A DNA stretch of 43,729 nt from a virus, in IMG/VR virus record IMGVR_UViG_3300046500_000066, positions 1 through 43,729 of that record. One strand, given 5' to 3'. A model generated the notes under the pieces. The model saw only the letters and a list, made by a program, of their open reading frames with translations, was not told the origin of the DNA and did not search any database. Made by a program: the position numbers and the translations under genes. Below are positions 2,883 through 29,465 of the stretch, in pieces (positions within the stretch are counted from its first letter, which is position 1; every line of letters starts with the position of its first letter).

Positions 2883-4445
2883 TTACTGTCCTTGTGGGGC
2901 CGCTTGTTGCTGGCCCTGCATGTGTTGTTTAGCCATGCCGCCAAGCTGGTTCACAGCGTTGGGGCCCAATGTCTGAAGCATGTTCTGCATCTGAGCTTGC
3001 TGCTCTGCTGCTGCAATTTGCTCATCGGTCTTGATGAGGCCGTTCATGTCGATACCCAGTGAGGCCCCAGTGCGCTTGATGAGGTCACCCATATTGACAT
3101 ACGTGGGTGCCACTTGCGGACCAAGTTGCTCAAGGGAGGTCATGAACTGCTGCAGCTTCGTGAGGTCATTGCCACGTCCGATAGCCTCAATGCCAGTGGT
3201 GATGGCAGGCTTAACGGTTCCTTCAGGGAGTACCGGGAGTTTCCCTTGGCGCTCCATCTGGAACATCACTCGCTGTACGAGGGGCAACTGGAACTCCTGG
3301 CTCAGTGTCGAGTAGACACCACCGAGAGAGCTTTCCAGTTCGTTAGCCATGTATCGGATTTCCTCTGCTGTCACTCGCTCACCATTACGCTGGATGGCGG
3401 TGTTCAGGAGGAAGGCAAAGCTAAGCTCTTGGGTAATCGTGTCACAGGTCTGCTTGGCGATAGCGAAGTCAGCCTGCTTCTCCATCTGCAGTACGCTCAC
3501 ATCCTCAGCGTTGCCTTCCTTCACTGCACCTGACTCACTCTCAGTGAGAACGCGGAGCTTGGTGGTGGAGTTCGGCTTGACGAGGAAGAGAACCTTGGCT
3601 GCAGCAGCGGAGCCCTGTACGATGGCCTTACGGAGAGCGTTGAGGGACTTGATGTCACCCAGGTACTCTTCCACGAAGCTACGTCCGTAGTCCTCGCCAT
3701 CAACAGCGATGAACCGGAGGGGAATCCAGGGGGACTTGTTCAGCGGGTAGCTGCCACGCGTACCGGGAATCTCGATGCCATTGGCTTCTTGATAGACCTC
3801 CCAGTTGCTCTTGGTGCGCTTCACGCTGGTGTAGACATCCACCACGTCCTCATTGTCATTCGCTGCCTTGTTGGCCAGTACGAACTCTCGGATGCTATCC
3901 GGGAGCTCCATCGGGGACACACACTCCTTCGTGATGTGTTCCAAGACGTTACCCATAGGGTCCCGCTTGACCACGTAACGGTCCAGACGGAAGGTCTTCA
4001 TGCCGCCATTGGGGGCCAAGAAGAACAACACGTTGCCCGTGACGAGCAGGAGCTTGATACCCTCGAATGCAGAGGTGCGGATGGTGCTTGTTTCAATGTT
4101 GGTCATGACTGACCGCTCCATCCCGCTCAGTGCATTCTCAATCTGGGCACGCATGTCTTGGCGGCCAGTGAGCTTCTGCATGGTCACGTCATCCACCACA
4201 AGGCGGAAGAACGGGGAGTTCGGAGGGAGCAACGCCAGGAGGAGCTTAGCTGCCAAGTTGTTGACCGCACGGGCACCAAAGGATTGGTACGGAGTGGGGA
4301 ACTTGGTGGAGCTAGTGGAGCCCTCCGGGGGGAGTAAGGTGGGGATGGTGAGCTTCGCGCAGTCACGGCCACGTTCTAGGAACACGAGCCGGTCACCGCT
4401 CAGCTTGTCATACCGAGCCTTGAGACTGCCGTTGTCGTCAGCCAT
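2883..4445 (-). CDS. gp8: Portal / head-tail connector protein (gp8-like)
   Basis: The 520-residue protein is a T7-type portal. Its N-terminus (ARYDKLSGDRLVFLERGRDC), FPTPYQSFGARAVNNLAAKL near residue 50 and LLPPNSPFFRL are hallmarks of the podoviral collar family (T7 gp8 is 536 residues). It forms the dodecameric ring through which DNA is packaged and ejected, docks the terminase, and later binds gp11. The C-terminus is glutamine-rich. The ATG (4443-4445) overlaps the stop of the preceding gp7.3-like gene by one base. Confidence 0.95.
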   Translation of the reverse strand: MADDNGSLKARYDKLSGDRLVFLERGRDCAKLTIPTLLPPEGSTSSTKFPTPYQSFGARAVNNLAAKLLLALLPPNSPFFRLVVDDVTMQKLTGRQDMRAQIENALSGMERSVMTNIETSTIRTSAFEGIKLLLVTGNVLFFLAPNGGMKTFRLDRYVVKRDPMGNVLEHITKECVSPMELPDSIREFVLANKAANDNEDVVDVYTSVKRTKSNWEVYQEANGIEIPGTRGSYPLNKSPWIPLRFIAVDGEDYGRSFVEEYLGDIKSLNALRKAIVQGSAAAAKVLFLVKPNSTTKLRVLTESESGAVKEGNAEDVSVLQMEKQADFAIAKQTCDTITQELSFAFLLNTAIQRNGERVTAEEIRYMANELESSLGGVYSTLSQEFQLPLVQRVMFQMERQGKLPVLPEGTVKPAITTGIEAIGRGNDLTKLQQFMTSLEQLGPQVAPTYVNMGDLIKRTGASLGIDMNGLIKTDEQIAAAEQQAQMQNMLQTLGPNAVNQLGGMAKQHMQGQQQAAPQGQ

Positions 4446-8423: not shown

Positions 8424-10272
8424 CGAGGGGGCACTTGAACTTGAAGTACTCGCCAGATTTGCGGATAGCCTGGACAGCCAGCTTCCCAATAGTTTCGCCA
8501 TGTTCTTCATCGCATTCGATTTGCCATTCATCGTGGACGTTAGCCACGAACTCATAGTGGATTCCTGGAACGAGACCCAATGCCTGAATGTCAGCATCGA
8601 GAATGCACAGGGCCTTCTTCATTTGGATAGCGCCAGCGGACTGGAGCAGGGTGTTGAGTGCAGAGTGCTGCGAGCGGATGTGGAGGATGCAGCCATCGAG
8701 GCCCTTGAGGAACCCGCGTGTCTTCACGGCTTCCTTAACGCGCTCCACGAGTTTCCCGAGGGCTGGTAGGTTGCGCATGAAGTCAGAGCGGGACTTCTTC
8801 CCACGGCCCCGAGCTCCACCACCCTTGACCCGCGTGAGGATGAACCCCAGCTTCTCGTCACCAGCCCCGTAGATAAACGCATAGAACCACGTCTTGGCGA
8901 TGTCACGGCCACTCTCGCCTTCGAAGTAGGTGCCCTTAGGGTCCAGCCCGAGAGCCCGAGCGTTGACCGAGTGAATGTCAGTGCCCTTGCTCTTGTCCCC
9001 TTCGAGAACCACCTTGACGTACTCGCCACCATCGTAGGCAGCCATGTAGCCAGCGAGGTCACGGAGCTCCAGTGCTGCAGCATCCGCACCCACCAGCACC
9101 TTGCCCTTCGGTACGATGAAGAGGGCACGACACTCGTGGCCATACGGGGAATAGCTGGCAGGCACTTGGCCCATGTTGGGGCGGCTGTGGGTCATGCGGC
9201 GTGTGACTGCACCGTTCGGGTTGACCGAGCCGTGCATTCGCCCGTTCTTCTCGTTCTTCAGCCACGCTTCCTTACCCTCAGCCAACTGGCCCAACCGCTT
9301 GCCCACCATCAGGTACTTCTGGAGCACCTTGGCTTCCGGGTAGGGCAACTGGTTCAGGATGGTTTCATCCACCGTGGGCTTGCCATCCTTACCGAACTCA
9401 TCAGGCTTCCACCCGTACATCCGCTTGAGCCACAGTGCGATGTGGTCACGGCTCCCTGGGTTGAACTCGGTGAGCTTGATCTTCTGGAAGGGGACACCAG
9501 CCTCATAGCCCCGCTTCTTGTCTGCTCGCTTCGGGGTGAACACCTTCCCATCCCGCATCCAGATAGGCTTGAACACGGTGGTCAGCTCTTCCTCCAGCCG
9601 GAGCTTCTCCTTGACCAGAAGGGCCAGCAGCCTTGCCGCACCCGCCTTATCGAACATGAAGCCGTACCGCTCTTGCCGGGAGAGGACCCATGCGACGCCA
9701 TGCTCAATGTCGATAGCTTCCCGCGAGTACCCCTTGCTCTCCAACTTGTTGAACAGCTTCAGGGTCACTTCCGTGTCCTGAACGCAGTAGTCCTGCATCG
9801 CTTGGTTCCAGCGTTCCCACTTGCGCCTCTTGCGTTCCTGCTCATCGGCAATCTCCGGGTCACCCTGATAGTCACCCTTGTATTCCCCAAGGCGGTATCC
9901 CCAAGCCTCCAGTGATTGGCGCTTGCGGAGGTTGCCGGGGAGCCTGCCCTTCTCATAGAGCTTGGTGTCAACGTCCCACAGGTCCGGATACACGAGGCGT
10001 GCATAGACCAGCGTATCAATCACCTTGGCGGGGCTAAGGGAGAACTTCGGATACAGCTTTTGGATTGCGGGGATGTCATACGAGATGCCGTTGTGCCACA
10101 CCGTAAGGTCAGCAGCCTGAGCCATTGCAAGGCCCATCTCGATGGTCCTGAGGGGGTCTACTGAGTTGAAGATGTGGACCTTGCCCGTGTCGATGTCCCG
10201 ATGGACAATCATGTGAATCTTGGTGATGCCATCAAGGAGGCCATCGGATTCGATGTCGCTCACTAGCCTCAC
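8380..10272 (-). CDS. gp5: DNA polymerase, family A (gp5-like)
   Basis: The 630-residue enzyme has the T7 layout. An N-terminal 3'-5' exonuclease carries D6/E8 (SDIESDG) and a second acidic site at about 161-166 (DYCVQD). The polymerase domain has motif A near D397 (VGADAAALELR), motif B at 457-469 (DIAKTWFYAFIYG) and motif C H580-D581-E582. GTG start at 10270-10272 with GGAGG 5 bases upstream, overlapping the previous stop (GTGA). It is about 70 residues shorter than T7 gp5 and looks compact between the exonuclease and FNPGSRDHI, where T7 carries its thioredoxin-binding loop. Processivity may therefore not depend on host thioredoxin (inference). Confidence 0.96.
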   Translation of the reverse strand: MRLVSDIESDGLLDGITKIHMIVHRDIDTGKVHIFNSVDPLRTIEMGLAMAQAADLTVWHNGISYDIPAIQKLYPKFSLSPAKVIDTLVYARLVYPDLWDVDTKLYEKGRLPGNLRKRQSLEAWGYRLGEYKGDYQGDPEIADEQERKRRKWERWNQAMQDYCVQDTEVTLKLFNKLESKGYSREAIDIEHGVAWVLSRQERYGFMFDKAGAARLLALLVKEKLRLEEELTTVFKPIWMRDGKVFTPKRADKKRGYEAGVPFQKIKLTEFNPGSRDHIALWLKRMYGWKPDEFGKDGKPTVDETILNQLPYPEAKVLQKYLMVGKRLGQLAEGKEAWLKNEKNGRMHGSVNPNGAVTRRMTHSRPNMGQVPASYSPYGHECRALFIVPKGKVLVGADAAALELRDLAGYMAAYDGGEYVKVVLEGDKSKGTDIHSVNARALGLDPKGTYFEGESGRDIAKTWFYAFIYGAGDEKLGFILTRVKGGGARGRGKKSRSDFMRNLPALGKLVERVKEAVKTRGFLKGLDGCILHIRSQHSALNTLLQSAGAIQMKKALCILDADIQALGLVPGIHYEFVANVHDEWQIECDEEHGETIGKLAVQAIRKSGEYFKFKCPLDGEYGIGRSWAETH

Positions 10273-19064: not shown

Positions 19065-19083
19065 TGCGAGAGGTGGGTTTTAG
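19065..19083 (-). promoter_or_regulatory. Phage-RNAP promoter after RNA polymerase gene
   Basis: Exact CTAAAACCCACCTCTCGCA on the minus strand, 43 bases downstream of the RNA polymerase stop and 30 bases before the next start. First promoter of the replication block, comparable to the class II promoters after T7 gene 1. Confidence 0.92.
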
Positions 19084-19091
19084 AGGCCACC

Positions 19092-19122
19092 ACTCTATCA
19101 GAAACACATGCGCAAGTGGAAC
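19092..19122 (-). promoter_or_regulatory. Repeat/extended -10 element downstream of RNAP gene
   Basis: This 31-base minus-strand element matches the one at 21656-21686 at 23 positions: GTTCCACT, five differing bases, ATGT, TT, CTGATA and AGT. It contains the extended -10 look-alike TGATAGAGT. The two copies flank the RNA polymerase gene. It could be a weak host promoter or an operator for a phage repressor. Confidence 0.5.
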
Positions 19123-19125
19123 GCA

Positions 19126-21561
19126 TCAGGCGAAAAAATACTCCGAGTGCATCACACCCTCCAAATCCAACGTGCCACACGGGGGCAACTCAGGGAGCTC
19201 CTTAGCCAACTCTGCAGGCAACTGATTGGCCAATTGCTGCTTGAAGTCGGCCAGCACTTCCTCGCTGTACTGGTCCACGAAGGCCCTGCGGAGCAGATTG
19301 CGGAGGTCTTCAGCGGCCCCAGCGTGGCTCCCGTAGCTGTCGTGAATCATTGCGAAGTCCGTAATTCCCGCATCCAGGCAGTAGGCCACCGTGCGCATCA
19401 TGTGGGCCGCATCAAGCGAGTGGATGAAGTTCGGGGAGATGCCCGCAGACTGCTTACGACCATCCAGCTTGTCCCCCTCGTTCTTCAGCATGAGGCGGAT
19501 GCGCTTGCCCGCCACATCGAAGTCCAAGCTCTTGCCAATCTGCTCACGGTAGCTCTGGAGCACCAGCAGGCCACTCGGGGTGGTCCACGAGACCGGGAGG
19601 GCGTTCGATGCTGCCACGCGCGCGGCCTCCTTCAGCCAGTCCATAGCTTGGTGAGCGGCCACCACTACCTTGCCAATGGCCTGATAGTTGGTGTTGGCGA
19701 GGTACTGGCAGTCCTTCAGGTCTGCTGTTACCTCCACGCCATCAGCCTTCATCTTCTGGAAGACGCCTTCGATTTGACCGCACATGCCCCGCTTGGTGGC
19801 TCCGTAAGGCGTGGTCATGGTGTTGGGCTTCGAGAGCTTGCGGGTCATCTTGCCTGCCCACTTCTGGCCCAACTCGATGCCTTCGTCAGCGTCAGCCTGC
19901 ATGAGCATGTTGGCTGCCTTGGCGACTTCACTATAGATGTCGCTCGGGACATCACTGGGGACCAGACCAACCGCAGCGCCGCCCACTTCATCCCGAAGGA
20001 GCGCAGAGAAGTTCTGCAGGCCGTTGCAGGCGCCATCCCAGGAGCACGGAAGGTGGCTGATGAAGTCCTCCTGAGCCTTACCGAGGTCCGTGTGCATCGT
20101 GAGGGCCAGCCACTCGTAGCAGAAGGCGAGGAACATATACGGGCTATCTGCATCGGCCCACCAGCGGGAACCATCGAGGGGATTGATGGCGGCCTCAAGA
20201 ATCTCGTCCTGATGGTCAATGACCCACTGCACCCGCTCATCGAAGGTCACCTTGTCAATCCCGAAGGTGTTGGCACCGTGGATGGCCAGCCAGCGCGCAC
20301 CATTCTCGCCCAGTGCCTTCCCCTCAGCGAACACCAAGAGGGATTTGTCACTGTCGCTACCTTGCGGGTTAAGGAAAGTGGACACGGGATATGCGCGACC
20401 ACGCCAATCCAGATTGTGAACGTAGTAGAAGGCTTCGATGTTCTCGAACTTCTCCGCCATCCACAGCTTGCTGGACATCGAGGCCCGCTTGGAGGCAGCC
20501 CGAATGTTCCCCTCATACACCTGTGCTGCCTGCTTCTTCCATGCCTTGAGCTCCTCCGGGTCCGGGGTTTCGAGGTCGAAGGTCTTCGCGGGCAGGGGCA
20601 TCGGGTCACGATGGGGCAGCTTACCGAGGCGCCCACCGTTATCCCAGACCTCCTTCATGACATGCAGGACAGCCTTGTTGATGGCCCAGGGGGTGTCCTG
20701 GAGGGCATTGACGGCCTTGTAGACCATCGGCATGGAGACCTGCTTCAGGTCCTCCAGGTAGTTCCGGTTGCCGGTCTTGATGAGCGGAAAGCGCATCGGC
20801 TTGGTCAGGTAGCCACCACCGAACGGGCTAGTCCAGGGACGCGGACGGACCACCATAGGCATAGCCATAGGGGACATGAGGGCACACCGAGCGTGGCCAT
20901 TAGCGAGCCACTTGGCGGTCTCTTCAGTGGGCACAACGATGTGCGGGGTATCGTTGACACCACGGACGAACTTCTGGACCTCCACGAGGCCCGTAGCTTC
21001 CTGGAAGAGGGAGATGAGCTGCATCCCGAGGCGCACCTTCTCAGCCTTGCCCCACTTAATCGGGACCAGCTTGGCGTACTTCTGCTGCACACGGAGAACG
21101 ATGTGGCGATGGCGGTCATCGCGGGAGTTCTCAATCTTCTTCATGAGCTGACGATACAGAGCAGGCTCCTGCTTCTTGAGGTTGTCAAAGTTCAAACAAT
21201 CCTCCAGACGATTGGCGATGTCACCAGCCACAGCACCCACCATAGACATGCTGGAGATGTGATTCATGACCACCTTAGCGGTCACGAAGGCCACCAGCTT
21301 GCGGTCTTGGAACTGGTCGAGGTAGCGGACCACACCCACGGAACGGCTCGCCTTACCTGACAGCCCTTCTTCGATGTACTTCTCGATGGCCACTGCGGTG
21401 GGCTCGATGGCTGCCTTAATCATCTGAAGACCGGGGGGCATCATGTCTTCCCCCTGCTTCAAGGCTTCGTTATAGCGCTTCATCCCGAGGCCAATGGCTT
21501 CCTCTTCGAGTTCCAGCTGGAGGGCGTTGAGGTCAACCGTAGCGGAGGTGTTCGTGGTCAT
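19126..21561 (-). CDS. gp1: Phage single-subunit RNA polymerase (gp1-like)
   Basis: The 811-residue enzyme belongs to the T7/T3/SP6 RNA polymerase family. The catalytic residues are recognisable: D509 (SWDGACNGLQ), K578 with Y586 (SKPN...PYG, the same spacing as T7 K631/Y639) and D741 (HDSYG). HSLDAAHMMRTVAY precedes the last motif, and the C-terminus ends FFA, like the FAFA foot of T7. It is about 70 residues shorter than T7 RNAP. It would transcribe all middle and late genes from the promoters described here. The ATG is at 21559-21561 with AGGGAA upstream. A terminator (21595-21625) and attP lie just before it, so its expression is the likely lysis-lysogeny decision point. Confidence 0.97.
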   Translation of the reverse strand: MTTNTSATVDLNALQLELEEEAIGLGMKRYNEALKQGEDMMPPGLQMIKAAIEPTAVAIEKYIEEGLSGKASRSVGVVRYLDQFQDRKLVAFVTAKVVMNHISSMSMVGAVAGDIANRLEDCLNFDNLKKQEPALYRQLMKKIENSRDDRHRHIVLRVQQKYAKLVPIKWGKAEKVRLGMQLISLFQEATGLVEVQKFVRGVNDTPHIVVPTEETAKWLANGHARCALMSPMAMPMVVRPRPWTSPFGGGYLTKPMRFPLIKTGNRNYLEDLKQVSMPMVYKAVNALQDTPWAINKAVLHVMKEVWDNGGRLGKLPHRDPMPLPAKTFDLETPDPEELKAWKKQAAQVYEGNIRAASKRASMSSKLWMAEKFENIEAFYYVHNLDWRGRAYPVSTFLNPQGSDSDKSLLVFAEGKALGENGARWLAIHGANTFGIDKVTFDERVQWVIDHQDEILEAAINPLDGSRWWADADSPYMFLAFCYEWLALTMHTDLGKAQEDFISHLPCSWDGACNGLQNFSALLRDEVGGAAVGLVPSDVPSDIYSEVAKAANMLMQADADEGIELGQKWAGKMTRKLSKPNTMTTPYGATKRGMCGQIEGVFQKMKADGVEVTADLKDCQYLANTNYQAIGKVVVAAHQAMDWLKEAARVAASNALPVSWTTPSGLLVLQSYREQIGKSLDFDVAGKRIRLMLKNEGDKLDGRKQSAGISPNFIHSLDAAHMMRTVAYCLDAGITDFAMIHDSYGSHAGAAEDLRNLLRRAFVDQYSEEVLADFKQQLANQLPAELAKELPELPPCGTLDLEGVMHSEYFFA

Positions 21562-21594
21562 GATGTGTTCCCTAAGTGGAAAGCTTCCGACAAT

Positions 21595-21625
21595 AAAAAG
21601 GCCTCCTGCGTCATTGCGCGGGAAG
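21595..21625 (-). terminator. Terminator just upstream of RNA polymerase gene
   Basis: On the minus strand a 9-bp stem with one mismatch (21617-21625 with 21602-21610) and a CAATGA loop is followed by CCTTTTTATTG. It lies 34 bases before the RNA polymerase start codon. It should stop host transcripts arriving from the early operon in the free genome, or from the host tRNA gene in the prophage. It could be subject to antitermination. Confidence 0.82.
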
Positions 21626-21655
21626 CATTGAAGTTACGTTTTCACTACAGGTCTT

Positions 21656-21686
21656 ACTATATCAGGAATACATCGCGTAGTGGAAC
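21656..21686 (-). promoter_or_regulatory. Candidate extended -10 promoter / operator before RNAP
   Basis: The minus strand contains TGATATAGT (extended -10, hexamer at 21656-21661) preceded by the repeated element GTTCCACT. It is the partner of 19092-19122. It lies upstream of the terminator and could start host-polymerase transcription of the RNA polymerase gene. The -35 (TTCCAC) is poor. Confidence 0.5.
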
Positions 21687-22014
21687 ACATCCCAAGTAAT
21701 TTTTGAGATGTATCTGATGGGGCAGGTAGGGATTACCTGAAGGGAAACTGAAGATGTCTTACTGGGTTCTCTTAAGGTGATGCCACTACTAGGTCATCCC
21801 TTACAGGAATTATTTTGAGGGTGTGTATGTGTGTCTAAATCCTTGGTCACACACGTAAGACATCAATCGTTTATCTATGGGTGAATCCATAGTTTCTTCA
21901 AACAGATGAAAGTATTTTGCAAGCCATTGATTATGCGGTCATCCCACAATCCTGCTCTTATCCTATTACTTTGACTACTAGGATAACCAGTAACAGGGTA
22001 GCCTGCGTTCAGTC
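21687..22014. other. Non-coding control region with inverted repeats
   Basis: No gene is seen here. Inverted repeats are frequent: CAGGTA-5-TACCTG (21723-21739), CTATGG-6-CCATAG (21875-21892) and a perfect 8-bp pair TTATCCTA / TAGGATAA (21958-21986, 13-base spacer). A TGTGTG/CACACA pair lies around 21820-21855. The stretch is AT-richer than the coding DNA. These are candidate binding sites for a repressor, excision factor or integrase between attP and the RNA polymerase gene. Confidence 0.6.
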
Positions 22015-22033
22015 TGCGAGAGGTGGGTTATAG
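22015..22033 (-). promoter_or_regulatory. Phage-RNAP promoter upstream of its own gene
   Basis: Exact CTATAACCCACCTCTCGCA on the minus strand, about 450 bases before the RNA polymerase start and 150 bases after attP. Phage polymerase starting here would transcribe its own gene, a positive feedback loop, if it passes the terminator at 21595-21625. Confidence 0.9.
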
Positions 22034-22100
22034 ACCAGCAAAGGGGCACAGCGGGAGGCACAGGGGCGACGGAGGGAATCTGGAGGACAACAGGAGGGGA

Positions 22101-22125
22101 ACTTTCGGAGGGAGATTTGGGCACA
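22101..22125. repeat. Candidate integrase arm site, RNAP-proximal side
   Basis: ACTTTCGGAG...TTTGGGCAC at 22101-22125 is an imperfect direct repeat of 22321-22344 on the other side of the attP core. The TTTGGGCAC unit (22116-22124) recurs three times there. Direct repeats flanking a tRNA-type core are the usual form of arm-type integrase sites. Confidence 0.6.
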
Positions 22126-22179
22126 CTCTCTAGTCACGCGAATCCACTTGAGAATGTGCCTTAACGCTAAGTCCTTGAT

Positions 22180-23388
22180 TTACTTGGTGCCCAGGGCCGG
22201 AATCGAACCGGCACGCCTTGCGGCGGGGGATTTTGAGTCCCCTGCGTCTACCAATTTCACCACCTGTTTGTCGTTTAGAATCAACGAGTTAGCGCATTGT
22301 TCAGAAGACTCAGGAGACACACTTTCGGGGCTATTTTGGGCACATTTGGGCACGTTTTTGGGCACAGTCACGGCCCCACTTTTGGCCAATACTTCAGCCA
22401 CACTGCGGAGGCCAGCAGCGCTCACATGGATGTACTTCTGGGTGGTAGCGATGGACTTGTGACCCAGCATTTGTTGGATCAATGGGCCGCTTACGCCAGC
22501 ATCAGCGAGCCGTGAGCCCACCGTATGGCGCATCGTGTGGATGACAAACTCCTTGTCCCCCGCGAATCCCATTTCATTGCGGACCCACACCCACGCTTTT
22601 GAGGCGATGTTATCGGTGAGATTACCGAAGGGTTTATCGAGGGCCTCACGGGATTTAAGGATTTGATAAACCCGCTCAGTCATCGGAATACCACGGGGCT
22701 GTTTGTTTTTCGTGACCCAGGTAATGATGAGGCGCTCGGGGAGGTTATAAGTCGCCTTCGAAATACCCAGGGCCTCATTCAGCCGCATCCCGGTATCGAA
22801 CAGCACTGCCACGAGGTCTGCCACGTCCCTGTGGTGCAGCCTGTCGCTGTTCTGGAGGAGCTCCAGCGCCTTCGCTTCTTCCTCAGGGGTGAACCTACGG
22901 GTGCGCCCTTCGGCCACCTTCTCGCGTACGAAGCGGGGCTTCACGAGCTCCGAATAGCCCCAGTGGTCGATGGCCTCATTGAACAGGACCGAGAGCTGGG
23001 AGAGGCGCTGGTTGATGGTGCTCCCTGCGAGGTCATCCCTGCGCATGGCCTCCACGAACTTCACCACGGCTTCCCGGTTGATGGCCGATAGACGACACCC
23101 GGGGCCGAAGTGGGCCTCAATGGCCTTCTGGTTCTTCTGGATGGTCTTGGGGGATGGGCTGTCCCGCCAGCTCTTGTATTCCCGCCATGCGCGCTTGTAG
23201 GCTTCCTCCAGGGTGGGCCCATAGCCTCCTCCCTTGGACACCTTGGCCTGGAGCTTGACGCCCGCCATCAGCTTCGCTGCGAGCTCCTTGGCTGTCTTCT
23301 TGTCGGTGGTCTTGAGGGACTTCCTCACCCGGTTCCCTTCCGAGTCGTAGAAGTCAGACCACCAAGTATTGCCGCGAAGTTTAATCAT
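22180..23388 (-). CDS. int: Tyrosine recombinase, phage integrase
   Basis: The 402-residue integrase has an AT-binding-like N-terminus (MIKLRGNTWWSDFYDSEGNR), a SAM-like core-binding domain and a C-terminal catalytic domain with R202 (DTGMRLNEAL), H284-x2-R287 (HTMRHT), H310 (LGHKS) and the nucleophile Y319 (TTQKYIHVS). The start at 23386-23388 is chosen because GGGGA lies 5 bases upstream; an earlier in-frame start would sit in the terminator at 23410-23434. About 80 residues follow Y319: they read through three TTTGGGCAC repeats, and the last 28 residues are encoded by the tRNA-derived attP core. The stop lies three bases beyond the tRNA CCA. Confidence 0.96.
   Translation of the reverse strand: MIKLRGNTWWSDFYDSEGNRVRKSLKTTDKKTAKELAAKLMAGVKLQAKVSKGGGYGPTLEEAYKRAWREYKSWRDSPSPKTIQKNQKAIEAHFGPGCRLSAINREAVVKFVEAMRRDDLAGSTINQRLSQLSVLFNEAIDHWGYSELVKPRFVREKVAEGRTRRFTPEEEAKALELLQNSDRLHHRDVADLVAVLFDTGMRLNEALGISKATYNLPERLIITWVTKNKQPRGIPMTERVYQILKSREALDKPFGNLTDNIASKAWVWVRNEMGFAGDKEFVIHTMRHTVGSRLADAGVSGPLIQQMLGHKSIATTQKYIHVSAAGLRSVAEVLAKSGAVTVPKNVPKCAQNSPESVSPESSEQCANSLILNDKQVVKLVDAGDSKSPAARRAGSIPALGTK
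22185..22268 (-). other. attP: attP core: near-complete tRNA-Leu(CAA) copy
   Basis: The minus strand folds as a leucine tRNA: D-arm GGTGGTGAAATTGGTAGACG, anticodon stem GGGGA / TCCCC with loop CTCAAAA (anticodon CAA), long variable arm CGCCGCAAGGCG, T-arm GCCGG-TTCGATT-CCGGC and CCTGGGCACCA. Only the first three acceptor bases are wrong (AAA where GCC is needed), so it is probably not a functional tRNA but an attachment site that restores the host gene on integration. It overlaps the integrase 3' end. Confidence 0.9.
22321..22365. repeat. Three TTTGGGCAC repeats inside int, candidate arm sites
   Basis: TTTGGGCAC occurs at 22335-22343, 22345-22353 and 22357-22365, 10 and 12 bases apart, close to one helical turn. 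Together with the copy at 22116-22124 they bracket the tRNA core. They lie within the integrase coding region after the catalytic tyrosine and encode parts of VPKCAQN. Confidence 0.65.
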
Positions 23389-23409
23389 ACCAATCCCCAA
23401 AGGTAAACG

Positions 23410-23434
23410 AAAAAGAGCCACCCGAAGGTGGCCC
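23410..23434 (-). terminator. Terminator between MarR gene and int
   Basis: On the minus strand an 8-bp stem GGGCCACC / GGTGGCTC with TTCG loop is followed by TTTTTCG. It lies 16 bases downstream of the MarR-like gene stop and 22 bases before the integrase start, so integrase expression from the early promoter should be attenuated. Confidence 0.88.
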
Positions 23435-23450
23435 AGTTTGCTGCTGTCTC

Positions 23451-23834
23451 TCAGGCTTTAACGGCGGGCCTTGTCCTGACGAAGCGCCCCAACTGCTCGT
23501 CAATTCTCTCTAACAGAGCCTTACCCTCATCGGTGAGGCTCACAATCTTCCTGCTGTAGTTGGTCGGGTCCTCTGCTGTGGTCACCAGCCCAAGCCCCTG
23601 ACCCATTGCGCTATTACCTCTGCCCAATGCTGCGACACTTCTGGACATCACTGCTTGGCCCAGCCCGGTGGACTCCTGGAGTTCCTTCAGGCTTCGGCCA
23701 GGGTTCGCTGCAATCTCTGCGAACACCACTACCATATTCGGCGGTACATCCTGCTTCTCCATCTTCTCAGCACAGAGATGACGGAAGATTTGTAGGACTT
23801 CTGCTGCTACGTGTAGAGCGGTGGTGCTGCTCAT
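23451..23834 (-). CDS. MarR-like winged-helix regulator
   Basis: The 127-residue protein has the MarR layout: N-terminal dimer helix, a lead helix (PNMVVVFAEIAANPGRSLKE), recognition helix region (TGLGQAVMSRSVAALG, about 56-71), a wing (GLGLVTTAEDPTNYSRKIVSL) and a C-terminal helix TDEGKALLERIDEQLG. It would bind DNA as a dimer. It is the only clear transcription-regulator fold next to the integrase and the best candidate for a lysogeny regulator, since no CI-like repressor is visible; its targets are unknown. GGGGAG lies about 9 bases before the ATG at 23832-23834. A terminator follows. Confidence 0.82.
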   Translation of the reverse strand: MSSTTALHVAAEVLQIFRHLCAEKMEKQDVPPNMVVVFAEIAANPGRSLKELQESTGLGQAVMSRSVAALGRGNSAMGQGLGLVTTAEDPTNYSRKIVSLTDEGKALLERIDEQLGRFVRTRPAVKA

Positions 23835-23861
23835 CTGGTGCTACTCCCCATTTTGTTTTAG

Positions 23862-24023
23862 TCAACTGCGGCTAATGACCAACAGCCACTTCCGCAGAAT
23901 AAGTACTTCCAGACCCCCGGTGTCTTCATCGCGTATCGACTCCAACATCGCGGGCTTGCGCCCATTCCGCTCTACATAGTCGCGGCAGAAGTGGATGTCA
24001 AAACCTGCAAGTGACAGCAGCAT
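23862..24023 (-). CDS. Small early protein upstream of MarR gene
   Basis: A 53-residue protein (MLLSLAGFDIHFCRDYVERN at the N-terminus, GGLEVLILRKWLLVISRS at the end) starting at 24021-24023 with GAGGAA about 8 bases upstream. A single unit with the MarR gene downstream is likely. The AT-rich sequence at about 24050-24110 upstream may hold a promoter for this pair. No family recognised. Confidence 0.6.
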   Translation of the reverse strand: MLLSLAGFDIHFCRDYVERNGRKPAMLESIRDEDTGGLEVLILRKWLLVISRS

Positions 24024-24135
24024 ACAACAGTTCCTCGTTGGGACAAAATGACTAAGTGGATGACTTGTCGTTATTTGTTAAAACTTGTAACAGCTCTTGC
24101 CCGAAGGCATGGAACGCATCATAGGGCTCGATTGC

Positions 24136-24321
24136 TCACACCTTACGATGAGTTTCTTCTATGTAATCTCCCATATACATAGCGTTGACAAGCGGTGGAC
24201 ACATGGGCTCTGGCCAAGCCCTCAAGTTATTGCATAAGATGCCGAGCCTGTACATTTTCACAGTACATTTGCCCCGCATTAGATCAATTCTCGTAAAAAT
24301 CTGAAGGAAAGCTCCAGACAT
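24136..24321 (-). CDS. Small early protein
   Basis: A 61-residue protein beginning MSGAFLQIFTRIDLMRGK and containing CTVKMYRLGILCNNL and CPPLVNAMYMGDYIEE. The start at 24319-24321 is chosen because AAGG lies 7 bases upstream. A longer form could start at a TTG at 24382-24384 with GAGG upstream. Three cysteines could bind metal. Support is moderate and the function unknown. Confidence 0.5.
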   Translation of the reverse strand: MSGAFLQIFTRIDLMRGKCTVKMYRLGILCNNLRAWPEPMCPPLVNAMYMGDYIEETHRKV

Positions 24322-24410
24322 CTTGGGCCTTTCTTCAGACTTTTGAGGGGATACGTACAGACTCCCCCTGTTGTAAGCGTGCAACTAATACCTCACTGGG
24401 CCTTAACAGA

Positions 24411-24632
24411 CTAATCTACTCGGGTAACTCTTACCCATCCTTGGGCCGTAACAACTTGGATCATGCGCACCCCTGGGCCTAACCGGGTTTCACCTAGCTG
24501 GGCCCTATCAGACTGGCTGAAGTTGAGCAGGCAGGCGGCCATGTGCGCCACTGCGAAGGCATCGCGCTTGACCCGGAACTTGACCGAGCATCGGTAGCCC
24601 TTGGTTGCTTGTGCTTCTATCAGGTACGGCAT
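24411..24632 (-). CDS. Small basic early protein
   Basis: A 73-residue, basic protein: beta-rich start MPYLIEAQATKGYRCSVKFR, a helix DAFAVAHMAACLLN, and a beta-rich end (MIQVVTAQGWVRVTRVD). GAGG lies 8 bases before the ATG at 24630-24632. In T7 the corresponding early region holds host-takeover proteins; no specific role can be assigned. Confidence 0.65.
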   Translation of the reverse strand: MPYLIEAQATKGYRCSVKFRVKRDAFAVAHMAACLLNFSQSDRAQLGETRLGPGVRMIQVVTAQGWVRVTRVD

Positions 24633-24684
24633 AGGAATACCTCTAGGACGCGTTTAGAGGGCCGTGGCGCCTCTGGTTGACATT

Positions 24685-24733
24685 CCCTAGTGGAAGGCTA
24701 GGGGTAAACTGAAGGAAGCCCGTGGTGGGCTTC
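24685..24733. other. Two small inverted repeats between early genes
   Basis: CCCTAG-7-CTAGGG (24685-24703), which includes a TTCCACTAG element on the minus strand, and a perfect 7-bp hairpin GAAGCCC-5-GGGCTTC (24715-24733). The second may act as a weak terminator or processing site. Otherwise the 24633-24763 interval appears non-coding. Confidence 0.5.
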
Positions 24734-24763
24734 ATATGGGAACCTTGGGTTTCGTGCGCTTGG

Positions 24764-24997
24764 TCACGGCTTGGCCCCGTCATCGGCTAGGATTGCCTCT
24801 CCAGCATCAATAGCGGCATCGAGGCGCTCAATCGCCTCCCGGTTCGTTTCCCAGAAATACACCCCGCTAACGTTGAATCCCTCAGCCCGTGCTGACATCT
24901 CCTGCGCTGCTACGACCAACCTGCCCAGCACCGTATAGACATCTTCGGGTTGTTCCGTGGGCGCATAAGGCGCACTGAAAGGGTGATGAGATGTCAT
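24764..24997 (-). CDS. Small early protein
   Basis: A 77-residue protein (MTSHHPFSAPYAPTEQPEDV at the N-terminus; helical VYTVLGRLVVAAQEMSAR; acidic Ala-rich C-terminus). The ATG at 24995-24997 overlaps the stop of the membrane peptide gene upstream (ATGA). The body is predicted helical. No family recognised. Confidence 0.68.
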   Translation of the reverse strand: MTSHHPFSAPYAPTEQPEDVYTVLGRLVVAAQEMSARAEGFNVSGVYFWETNREAIERLDAAIDAGEAILADDGAKP

Positions 24998-25116
24998 CGC
25001 TTAGCCCCCAACAGGGGCCGCACGGAGTCCACGAGAATAGCCAGGGTTGCCGCGAGGCCCACACAGCAGAGAATCGCTAGGATTGAATAGAAGAACAGTT
25101 GGATTGAATCGAACAT
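24994..25116 (-). CDS. 40-residue membrane protein
   Basis: MFDSIQLFFYSILAILCCVG followed by LAATLAILVDSVRPLL: one long hydrophobic segment (about residues 6-30) and a short basic tail ending AKR, i.e. a single-span small membrane protein. It lies between two tightly spaced early genes (stop overlap downstream, start two bases after the previous stop). Role unknown; possibly membrane targeting of an early function. Confidence 0.68.
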   Translation of the reverse strand: MFDSIQLFFYSILAILCCVGLAATLAILVDSVRPLLGAKR

Positions 25117-25118
25117 GG

Positions 25119-25262
25119 TTAGATGACCCCCAGTGCGCGGAGCTCATCAGCGTTCAGGTTGTCAATCCCGAACTCCTCTACAGTCTCGCCACAGTTGTAA
25201 ACATCGCCCGAGACATCCTCGATGAGGAGACAGCCGTCTGTATCAATTCCAATGACCTGCAT
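25119..25262 (-). CDS. 47-residue acidic early protein
   Basis: MQVIGIDTDGCLLIEDVSGD at the N-terminus, then VYNCGETVEEFGIDNLNADE and LRALGVI. Compact, acidic, with two cysteines. GGAG lies 8 bases before the ATG at 25260-25262. Tandem with the small membrane protein gene. No family recognised. Confidence 0.68.
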   Translation of the reverse strand: MQVIGIDTDGCLLIEDVSGDVYNCGETVEEFGIDNLNADELRALGVI

Positions 25263-25303
25263 GATGTGAGCTCCAAAGGGTTGCCTAGACGATTCGCTAG
25301 ATG

Positions 25304-25378
25304 AACCGGACGCGCGCCTATCGGCTTGCAGACGCCTACCATCCGGTTTATCTAACGGGCTCCAGAGATGGACTAGAG
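25304..25378. other. Hairpin and promoter-like repeat in early operon
   Basis: The non-coding gap 25263-25410 holds an inverted repeat AACCGGA (25304-25310) / TCCGGTT (25342-25348). It also holds a 15-base element AGAGATGGACTAGAG (25364-25378), an exact copy of 26787-26801. This element matches the phage promoter consensus at 11 of 16 positions, with ATCTCT on the minus strand as in the capsid-gene promoter, so it may be a weak phage promoter. Confidence 0.45.
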
Positions 25379-25410
25379 CCAGTCAGCATGAGTTGCGCTA
25401 GTGGAATGCT

Positions 25411-26040
25411 TTAGGAAACGTAAAGGTACGGGCGCGCTTCAATAGCCCTGCCATCCTGATACCAGCCCACGAAGCATTCGCGCTTCTCAGACCACATGAG
25501 GCGGCCCTTAAGGTGGCGCTCCATCTCAGCGTAGGGCAGCGAGTGGTATCCAATTGAGAACCGCTCGTTCTCCGCGACTTCCTCTCCGCTTGCGTAGGAG
25601 ACATTCCAGCCCAGCACCCAGTCTAGGAACCCAGCATCAGCCAGTGAATCAATCTTGAACAGACGAACGCGCCCATAGTTTCCCCGCACATCTCCACCCT
25701 GATGCACTTCGATTGCCACGTAGCAGTCCCGCTCCCAGCACCAATCCCCGTGACCATCCGCAGGGTAAAACACCTGCCACTGAAACTGAGACGAAAAGTC
25801 GTTCTCGTTGTTGTAGGTGTTGTCCACACCAGTGCACTTGTATTCCTGGCCCTCTTCGAGCTCGATTGCTTCTTTGATTTCGTCTTCACACTGCATCAGC
25901 CACTTCTGACTGAGGAGCTCTTCCAACTCGCCACCTTCCAGCACTTCAGAGCCCAAGACAGCCGACAGCCACTCCTCAGTGTCAATCGCCGTGCACTCAG
26001 GGAAACTATGGTCAAACTGGATCAGGTTGTTCGTGGTCAT
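25411..26040 (-). CDS. Large acidic early protein, unknown
   Basis: The 209-residue protein (start MTTNNLIQFDHSFPECTAID) is the largest early gene product. By my count it has about 40 Asp/Glu against 16 Lys/Arg. The N-terminal third is helical and acidic (LGSEVLEGGELEELLSQKWL), then a beta-rich, Trp/Tyr-rich region (FQWQVFYPADGHGDWCWERD, CYVAIEVHQGGDVRGNYGRV). GAGGAG lies 9 bases before the ATG at 26038-26040. No family recognised. Its place resembles T7 genes 0.3-0.7, which block host defences and modify host functions, so a DNA-mimic or anti-defence role is a reasonable but untested guess. Confidence 0.75.
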   Translation of the reverse strand: MTTNNLIQFDHSFPECTAIDTEEWLSAVLGSEVLEGGELEELLSQKWLMQCEDEIKEAIELEEGQEYKCTGVDNTYNNENDFSSQFQWQVFYPADGHGDWCWERDCYVAIEVHQGGDVRGNYGRVRLFKIDSLADAGFLDWVLGWNVSYASGEEVAENERFSIGYHSLPYAEMERHLKGRLMWSEKRECFVGWYQDGRAIEARPYLYVS

Positions 26041-26056
26041 TTTCGATACTCCTCTA

Positions 26057-26179
26057 TCAGTGGTTGCTAACGTAGAACAGAGCGGGCACTGCTGCGTCCT
26101 GTAGAGCCCTAATGGCATCTTCGAGGGTATCGAAGGCCAGTATTATCTTGCCGGACATCTTGTGAATCAGTTTGTACAT
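26057..26179 (-). CDS. 40-residue early peptide
   Basis: MYKLIHKMSGKIILAFDTLE followed by DAIRALQDAAVPALFYVSNH. A beta-strand pair then a helix. AAAGGA lies about 8 bases before the ATG at 26177-26179. Located directly upstream of the acidic protein gene in the early operon. Unknown function. Confidence 0.6.
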   Translation of the reverse strand: MYKLIHKMSGKIILAFDTLEDAIRALQDAAVPALFYVSNH

Positions 26180-26225
26180 GACATCGGTTCCTTTAGTGGA
26201 TGACTGTAGTGTGACTGAAGGTGGA

Positions 26226-26279
26226 CTACAGGTCAACAGCTATTATCCGTTTGGTCCTCTTACGGTGCGGAAGGCCCAT
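26226..26279 (-). CDS. Possible 17-residue basic peptide
   Basis: MGLPHRKRTKRIIAVDL, with AGAGG 6 bases before the ATG at 26277-26279. It starts ten bases after the stop of the 37-residue frame. It could be a leader peptide; it is too short to be sure. Confidence 0.3.
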   Translation of the reverse strand: MGLPHRKRTKRIIAVDL

Positions 26280-26288
26280 GTTCACCTC

Positions 26289-26402
26289 TTAGCGGTAGAT
26301 ACCAGCGATAAGATCAACTGCAGCCGCTCTGATGTGTTGCGAGTGTTGGCCTTTGGAGTTACTGAAGAGGAGCAGGAGGAGCGTTTGTGCTGTCTGGGAC
26401 AT
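26289..26402 (-). CDS. 37-residue early peptide
   Basis: MSQTAQTLLLLLFSNSKGQH then SQHIRAAAVDLIAGIYR. A leucine-rich hydrophobic stretch is followed by a helix. AAGGA lies 6 bases before the ATG at 26400-26402, nine bases after the stop of the first early gene. Function unknown. Confidence 0.5.
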   Translation of the reverse strand: MSQTAQTLLLLLFSNSKGQHSQHIRAAAVDLIAGIYR

Positions 26403-26411
26403 GTTCAATCC

Positions 26412-26579
26412 TTACTGAATGTTCAATTGCTTGCGCAGTGCTGCCAGTTCACGCTCCTGAGCAGACTTACGCGGGAACAGCACCGTAACCAGACCAAACA
26501 ACGAAGCACCGAGGAACGAACCGAAGAGGATGAACGAGAACACATAGAGTGCGATGGTGTTGGCTTCTGCGTAGGTCAT
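26412..26579 (-). CDS. First early gene: small membrane protein
   Basis: A 55-residue protein with one strong membrane segment (about residues 9-34: IALYVFSFILFGSFLGASLF and onward) and a basic, coiled-coil-like cytoplasmic tail (PRKSAQERELAALRKQLN). GGAG lies 9 bases before the ATG at 26577-26579. It is the first gene after the sigma70-type promoter and so probably the first phage protein made. Membrane-anchored early proteins can mediate superinfection exclusion, but this is only a possibility. Confidence 0.7.
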   Translation of the reverse strand: MTYAEANTIALYVFSFILFGSFLGASLFGLVTVLFPRKSAQERELAALRKQLNIQ

Positions 26580-26624
26580 GGTGTTTGCTCCGGGTTCGTT
26601 ATGTTGTTTGCTGCGTTGGATTGA

Positions 26625-26653
26625 ACTTTAAGCGTTCCACATGAGCATGTCAA
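26625..26653 (-). promoter_or_regulatory. Early sigma70-type host promoter
   Basis: On the minus strand a perfect -35 TTGACA (26648-26653), a 17-base spacer and the -10 TAAAGT (26625-26630) lie 46 bases before the first early gene. The spacer contains an inverted TTCCAC element (GTGGAA) like those near the RNA polymerase gene, a possible operator. It is the analogue of T7 promoters A1-A3, recognised by host polymerase right after entry. Confidence 0.8.
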
Positions 26654-26895: not shown

Positions 26896-26935
26896 AAAAA
26901 AGGGGAGACAGTCCGGTACTCAGGACCATCTCCCC
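26896..26935 (-). terminator. Strong terminator before early region
   Basis: A 13-bp stem (26923-26935 with 26902-26914, two wobble pairs) with an 8-base loop is followed on the minus strand by TTTTTT (26896-26901). It lies between the terminase end and the early promoter. It should stop late transcription running across a concatemer junction or through the circular/prophage genome into the early genes. Confidence 0.9.
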
Positions 26936-27212
26936 TATGGGCGATGCGTGGTGAATCTACTGCGAATCTACAGCAAGGGGATTATCAATCCTCCGCCAGC
27001 CCAATGGAATCAATGACTTAGCCCGGGGTGTGGCTAAGGATGTGACCAAAGGGAGCTCGATGTGTGCCCAGGGTGTGCCTGGAGGCCAGCTAGAGAGGGC
27101 GAGGGATACCGGTACTGTGCCTGGGTTTCGAGGGGTGCACGGGGGGTTCTGCGGCCCTGACCTTATCAGATACCCTCTCAGATTTTTCCCCAGAACATTT
27201 CAAGGGTCCCTA

Positions 27213-27628: not shown

Positions 27629-27647
27629 TGCGAGAGGTGGGTTATAG
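27629..27647 (-). promoter_or_regulatory. Phage-RNAP promoter at genome end (phiOR-like)
   Basis: Exact CTATAACCCACCTCTCGCA on the minus strand, 47 bases after the large terminase stop and followed by no late gene. T7 has phiOR at the equivalent place, implicated in DNA end maturation and a secondary replication origin. Confidence 0.9.
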
Positions 27648-29418: not shown

Positions 29419-29465
29419 GCCGCTCCTAGGGTTCCACTAGGGGATGCGTATGGGTAAGGGATGGG

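Follow-up and report, generated by a model that had tools for sequence, protein, structure and literature searches.

Separation of the RNA polymerase gene from the integrase by integration of temperate T7-like phages, and a candidate repressor control

T7-like phages have long been regarded as strictly lytic. Where such a phage is temperate, the question arises how its prophage keeps a self-amplifying RNA polymerase silent. We analyzed this question for the 43,729-nt virus record IMGVR_UViG_3300046500_000066 (referred to as the window; all coordinates are window positions, minus strand unless marked +). In the direction of transcription, its minus strand carries an early promoter, small early genes, a MarR-like gene, a tyrosine integrase gene (int), the phage attachment site attP, a gap of ~620 bp and the gene of a T7-type single-subunit RNA polymerase (RNAP). 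A previous, sequence-only reading had placed attP between the early/int block and the RNAP gene, all on one strand, and had proposed that lysogeny would be kept partly by DNA topology. This placement is confirmed, and the positions given for the early promoter, int, attP and RNAP hold on re-check. Four components of the region were absent from that reading: the MarR-like gene, two terminators between the early genes and RNAP, a phage promoter together with a sigma70-like −10 hexamer between attP and RNAP, and an operator-like repeat. With these included, the structural part of the reading is correct and general, but the mechanism attached to it is too simple.

Topology of integrated prophages

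The RNAP gene (19126–21561) matches PF00940 (E = 7e-114) and PF14700, and its best phage matches are T7-like phages with 35–40% RNAP identity. The int gene (22180–23421; PF00589, E = 1e-20; PHROG_1, E = 8e-56) probably starts at the ATG at 23388. Its reading frame terminates within attP, the last int codons being read through the attachment site. The attP core (22185–22266) was delimited by genome comparison including the flanks and comprises 82 bp of a tRNA-Leu gene up to the CCA. Of 60 Burkholderiaceae genomes, 11, among them Paraburkholderia susongensis, have a tRNA-Leu identical to a 79-bp core at 79 of 79 positions; the identity grows to 82 bp when extended by 3 bases. Its edge is sharp at the 5' side and lies at the CCA, plus or minus one base, at the 3' side. 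The phage host is therefore likely a member of the Burkholderiaceae. ARAGORN called no tRNA at attP because the first four tRNA bases are missing. Between attP and RNAP the window is free of genes. The MarR-like gene upstream of int (23451–23834; PHROG_9665, E = 7e-19; PDB MarR-family profile search, E = 6e-6) encodes a candidate immunity repressor with 79% identity to its homologue at locus L123 and 40% identity to the MarR of phage LUZ100. The window shows no terminal repeat at the contig ends, both of which fall within late genes; the contig would thus represent a phage-form genome opened within the late genes.

A genome scan with an RNAP alignment yielded 80 loci (labels such as L023). The nearest integrated relative is a prophage of P. 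susongensis (L023/L123) with an RNAP identity of 80–81%. At one of its ends (L023), non-phage genes and an intact, co-directional tRNA-Lys gene (9458–9533) precede RNAP, which begins at 10001. The other end (L123) carries MarR, int and attR, and attR and attL share ~50 bp, the 3' half of the tRNA-Lys. In all 27 prophages examined, int follows RNAP at a distance of 28–41 kb and shares its strand (27/27). A MarR-like gene lies beside int in 26 of them; in the remaining one, L084, int lies at 28 kb and could be part of a different element. Direct repeats of 17–98 bp, mostly tRNA-derived, adjoin RNAP and follow int in 13 of the 27, besides L023. For several further prophages, which ended at contig edges, int was not found. 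In these prophages, integration parts the early/MarR/int block from RNAP. The phage genes then begin with RNAP, next to the host tRNA, and end with MarR and int, about 35–40 kb away. Each attachment site adjoins one of the two, RNAP or int, as the sequence-only reading had expected. It had also expected a host tRNA gene upstream of RNAP, which agrees with the co-directional tRNA-Lys of the closest prophage; among the prophages in general, the orientation of the tRNA next to RNAP varies.

The split of RNAP and int is not obligatory, since joined temperate relatives exist in Pseudomonas. Prophages L081, L098 and L099 keep int upstream of RNAP in the chromosome, at a distance of 3–4 kb (L081, L098) or ~1 kb (L099). 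Their integrase is a different, larger one, and no MarR was found at these three loci. Sphingomonad loci L039, L049 and L074 have int several kb upstream of RNAP and were excluded from the joined type, as they are organized differently and yielded no attR. Loci L037, L055 and L077 seem to represent a variant module, with at least one MarR-like gene immediately preceding RNAP and on the same side as it.

The attachment cassette itself is variable. L002 and L003 match the window at 100% identity in RNAP and MarR but at only 62% in int, and neither showed a tRNA-Leu attP. By sequence comparison, the int-attP cassette is swapped in place between these relatives. In the integrated L023 prophage, the int frame (L123, 9460–10947) continues via attR into host DNA and reaches 496 aa. 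As the C-terminus of int is encoded by attP, integration thus rewrites the tail of the integrase.

Control elements on both sides of attP

The predicted early promoter (26625–26653) is of the sigma70 type, TTGACA-17-TAAAGT, with 10 of 12 consensus bases. It is conserved in L002, L010 and the L023 prophage, and its spacer sequence CTCATGTGGAAC is kept in four phages. A strong intrinsic terminator (26901–26936; 14-pair stem and T run) is located upstream of it. Downstream, an intrinsic terminator lies between MarR and int (23415–23434, z = −3.1) and was found in 8 of 8 window-family sequences tested. Just before RNAP follows a terminator-like hairpin with a T run (21595–21626), present in 8 of 8 relatives. 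This hairpin covaries, with five pairs changed on both sides, and its score was reached by 4 of 500 shuffles. Even in the phage form, both elements are predicted to shield RNAP from transcription of the early operon; what integration would remove is therefore read-through alone.

On RNAP's side of attP we observed a copy of a phage RNAP-type promoter motif, CTATAACCCACCTCTCGCA (22015–22033). The motif occurs six times in the window, always on the minus (coding) strand, with 0 copies expected in shuffles; other copies are located after RNAP (19065–19083) and between the terminase and the early region (27629–27647). Closer to RNAP is a sigma70-like −10 hexamer, TATAGT (21656–21661), with all six columns invariant in eight relatives. 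It belongs to a block 100–130 bp before the RNAP ATG (TTCCACT, TATAGT and the hairpin) that is conserved in the eight relatives, down to 80% RNAP identity (L023). The dependence of RNAP on the early promoter presupposed by the sequence-only reading is not borne out, as the predicted phage promoter and the conserved −10 stay with RNAP upon integration. The sequence-only reading had itself named transcription of RNAP in infection solely from a promoter between attP and 21561 as evidence against its model; in silico, the predicted promoters come close to such a situation.

The TTCCACT elements were also considered as the phage RNAP promoter. This assignment was rejected, since CTAWAACCCASCTCTCGCA is a better candidate (6 copies versus 0 expected) and since TTCCACT sites precede, rather than sit within, the mapped phage promoters of LUZ100. 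A dyad, CCTAGTA-N7-TA(A/C)TAGG (21962–21982), is also present in relatives between attP and RNAP. As a repeated operator, CCTAGTA-N7-TACTAGG was discarded: the window holds a single copy and the count is not above chance. In L004, L006, L007, L008, L009 and L012, the attP-RNAP gap (~2540–2980 in L004) holds an inserted HNH endonuclease gene (PF13392, E = 4e-12). This gene immediately precedes the conserved RNAP promoter block, which stays intact.

A position weight matrix (PWM) for the operator-like element was trained on the L023 prophage only and then applied to the window. Ten of the 12 top sites are intergenic, compared with 12% of the sequence (p about 4e-8); one of the ten, at 29432, was included because it directly precedes the terminase start, not on the basis of the script's mask. 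Sites of the form TTCCACTNNNGSA lie within the spacer of the early promoter and between early genes; around RNAP they occur in its control block, at its ribosome-binding site and immediately behind the gene. The element inside the early-promoter spacer is TTCCACATGAGCA (26635–26647, +, PWM score 14.6). At the −35 position of the putative RNAP-proximal promoter lies TTCCACTACGCGA (21673–21685), identified by the PWM and by the relatives' conserved block. Further PWM sites overlap the RNAP ribosome-binding site (21569–21581), lie beside attP (22142–22154, +, score 14.5) and directly follow RNAP (19109–19121), the last at a place also used in L023 and LUZ100. The early region contributes two intergenic elements (24683–24695, score 19.1; 25394–25406, score 16.4) and a third one at 26189–26201 (score 14.6). 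Similar TCCACTNNNGCA sites occur in LUZ100 at 3942, 3998 and 6692, before the phi1 promoter and right after RNAP. Operator-like repeats at both promoters suggest a trans-acting repressor.

Two additional reading frames were noted. A 53-aa frame directly upstream of MarR (23862–24023) is conserved in L123 and has no Pfam match; it could encode an excisionase or a regulator. A 750-aa open frame antisense to RNAP (19108–21360, +) probably results from the codon bias of G+C-rich DNA.

Proposed control of the polymerase and alternatives

Based on these elements we consider the following mechanism rather probable: a trans-acting, MarR-type repressor silences both ends of the prophage, and the position of attP adds a secondary, insulating layer. 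The repressor, most likely the MarR-like protein, would bind the repeats and close the early promoter as well as the RNAP promoter. Since it acts in trans, it would work whatever the topology. The hairpin and the terminator following MarR would keep stray transcription out of RNAP, be it from the early operon in the phage form or from the host tRNA in the prophage. The secondary layer would consist in the lysogen expressing MarR and int from the early region with no read-through into the self-amplifying RNAP, while during infection such read-through would be possible. An effect of topology is plausible because RNAP can self-amplify from its own promoter and because read-through has been proposed as the first source of RNAP in LUZ100. 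Lysogeny thus probably rests mainly on the repressor, and partly, if at all, on physical separation. What stands of the topological claim is the separation (27/27 on the same strand); the dependence of RNAP on the early promoter is unsupported.

Several observations weigh against the repressor mechanism. The repeats were not found in phage YIMV22061, which also has a MarR, and we infer MarR to be the repeat-binding protein from its position and from co-occurrence. The RNAP-proximal promoter has a weak −35 with a variable TTCCAC spacing (17–21), and a generic promoter scan did not call it. Across all lineages, pre-RNAP terminators are found on the RNAP strand in 29/50 cases versus 20/50 on the opposite strand, which is not significant; as a general enrichment is unconvincing, we kept this feature for the window's own family alone. 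Cappable-seq of LUZ100 mapped no host start site immediately upstream of RNAP (PMC10134795), and read-through may be the main route to RNAP there.

In the model of the sequence-only reading, the host transcribes RNAP essentially only by read-through from the early promoter, disconnection itself maintains lysogeny and excision relinks the two blocks. The separation in all 27 prophages agrees with it, as do the proposed passage from P3 through T4 and the missing host start adjoining RNAP in LUZ100 (PMC10134795). It also fits that attP stays between int and RNAP while the target (tRNA-Leu in the window, tRNA-Lys in L023) and the int allele (62% in L002) change. On the other hand, a conserved −10 and a phage promoter lie on RNAP's side of attP, two terminators already stand between the early genes and RNAP before integration, repressor-type repeats occur at both promoters, and joined prophages exist (L081, L098, L099; G11 in PMC10142737). 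We regard this model as unlikely, and hold topology as the main mechanism of lysogeny to be equally doubtful. Modular descent is no more probable. Here, an int-attP cassette would have been inserted once between MarR and RNAP in the ancestor and then been passed on or replaced there by recombination, the split would have no regulatory effect, and RNAP would be controlled solely by its own promoter and a repressor. The MarR-int-RNAP order is common to HTVC019P and LUZ100, and the 27 prophages therefore cannot be counted as so many independent events. The in-place exchange of the cassette is as expected from descent, and so is the varying tRNA orientation beside RNAP, which means that the upstream context is not kept constant; selection nevertheless has room, given that the attP site persists although the target has changed many times and that insulating hairpins recur. 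Somewhat less improbable, though still tentative, is that the fixed attP position across temperate T7-like phages is a selected device, with recombination helping to set and hold the lytic or lysogenic state. Infection would then let host transcription pass from the lysogeny genes into RNAP, a path that the prophage would not have.

According to our survey, an RNAP parted from MarR and int is a common property of such prophages. With the short conserved control block and the candidate operators, the question how T7-like prophages keep this polymerase silent becomes testable with small constructs.

Comparison with known systems

In mycobacteriophage BPs, attP is part of the repressor gene, and upon integration the repressor is truncated and loses a degradation tag (PMC4557955). 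The window phage shares the logic that integration alters the state of a regulatory gene, with attP inside the switch region; the likeness to mycobacteriophages drawn by the sequence-only reading holds to this extent. The mechanism differs: attP lies at the 3' end of int and leaves the repressor candidate unaffected, the MarR gene being intact at 23451–23834 and also whole in the integrated L123. Strict integration-dependent immunity of the BPs type is ruled out by an attP outside the repressor gene. If topology contributes, the lysogeny switch would be of a different kind. In the open-access literature, which did not cover Zhao et al. 2019, we found no description of an RNAP parted from the early operon by integration.

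Temperate Autographiviridae of Pseudomonas of the vB_PaeM-G11 type (PMC10142737; L081, L098, L099) likewise combine a T7-type RNAP with a temperate life style, as phages or prophages. They differ in a larger, distinct int upstream of RNAP in the chromosome without separation (for G11 suggested by the order of open reading frames), and no MarR was found.

By its sequence-testable features, the window phage is a temperate member of the Autographiviridae of the HTVC019P/LUZ100 kind: it has the T7-type RNAP, a MarR-like gene followed by a tyrosine integrase directly before RNAP, and, between int and RNAP, an attP that matches a host tRNA exactly. HTVC019P-type pelagiphages (Pelagivirus) have the early genes, MarR, int and RNAP in the same order on one strand and a tRNA-targeted tyrosine integrase; they differ in their host, in an integrase identity of ~31% and in a shorter int-RNAP gap. 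For these phages, a published proposal has MarR acting on sites that surround the RNAP promoter (Zhao 2019, cited in PMC10134795). The int-before-RNAP order, which the sequence-only reading had attributed to temperate T7-like marine phages, is thus that of HTVC019P and also that of LUZ100. Pseudomonas phage LUZ100 (PMC10134795) shares the MarR-int operon, a terminator after int, a phage promoter before RNAP, an RNAP of 39–40% identity and TCCACTNNNGCA elements around RNAP. Its authors propose that RNAP is first made from the MarR-int promoter P3 by partial read-through of terminator T4 (PMC10134795). It differs in having no mapped sigma70 start directly before RNAP and an intact tRNA-Leu before int, and stable lysogens were not obtained. 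Its int-RNAP gap gave no clear tRNA match that would mark attP.

The closest counterpart is the P. susongensis prophage L023/L123, which shares RNAP (80–81%), MarR (79%), the early promoter, the operator-like repeats, the RNAP control block and the split topology, here seen in the integrated state. Its target is tRNA-Lys instead of tRNA-Leu, and an additional strong terminator is located between the tRNA and RNAP.

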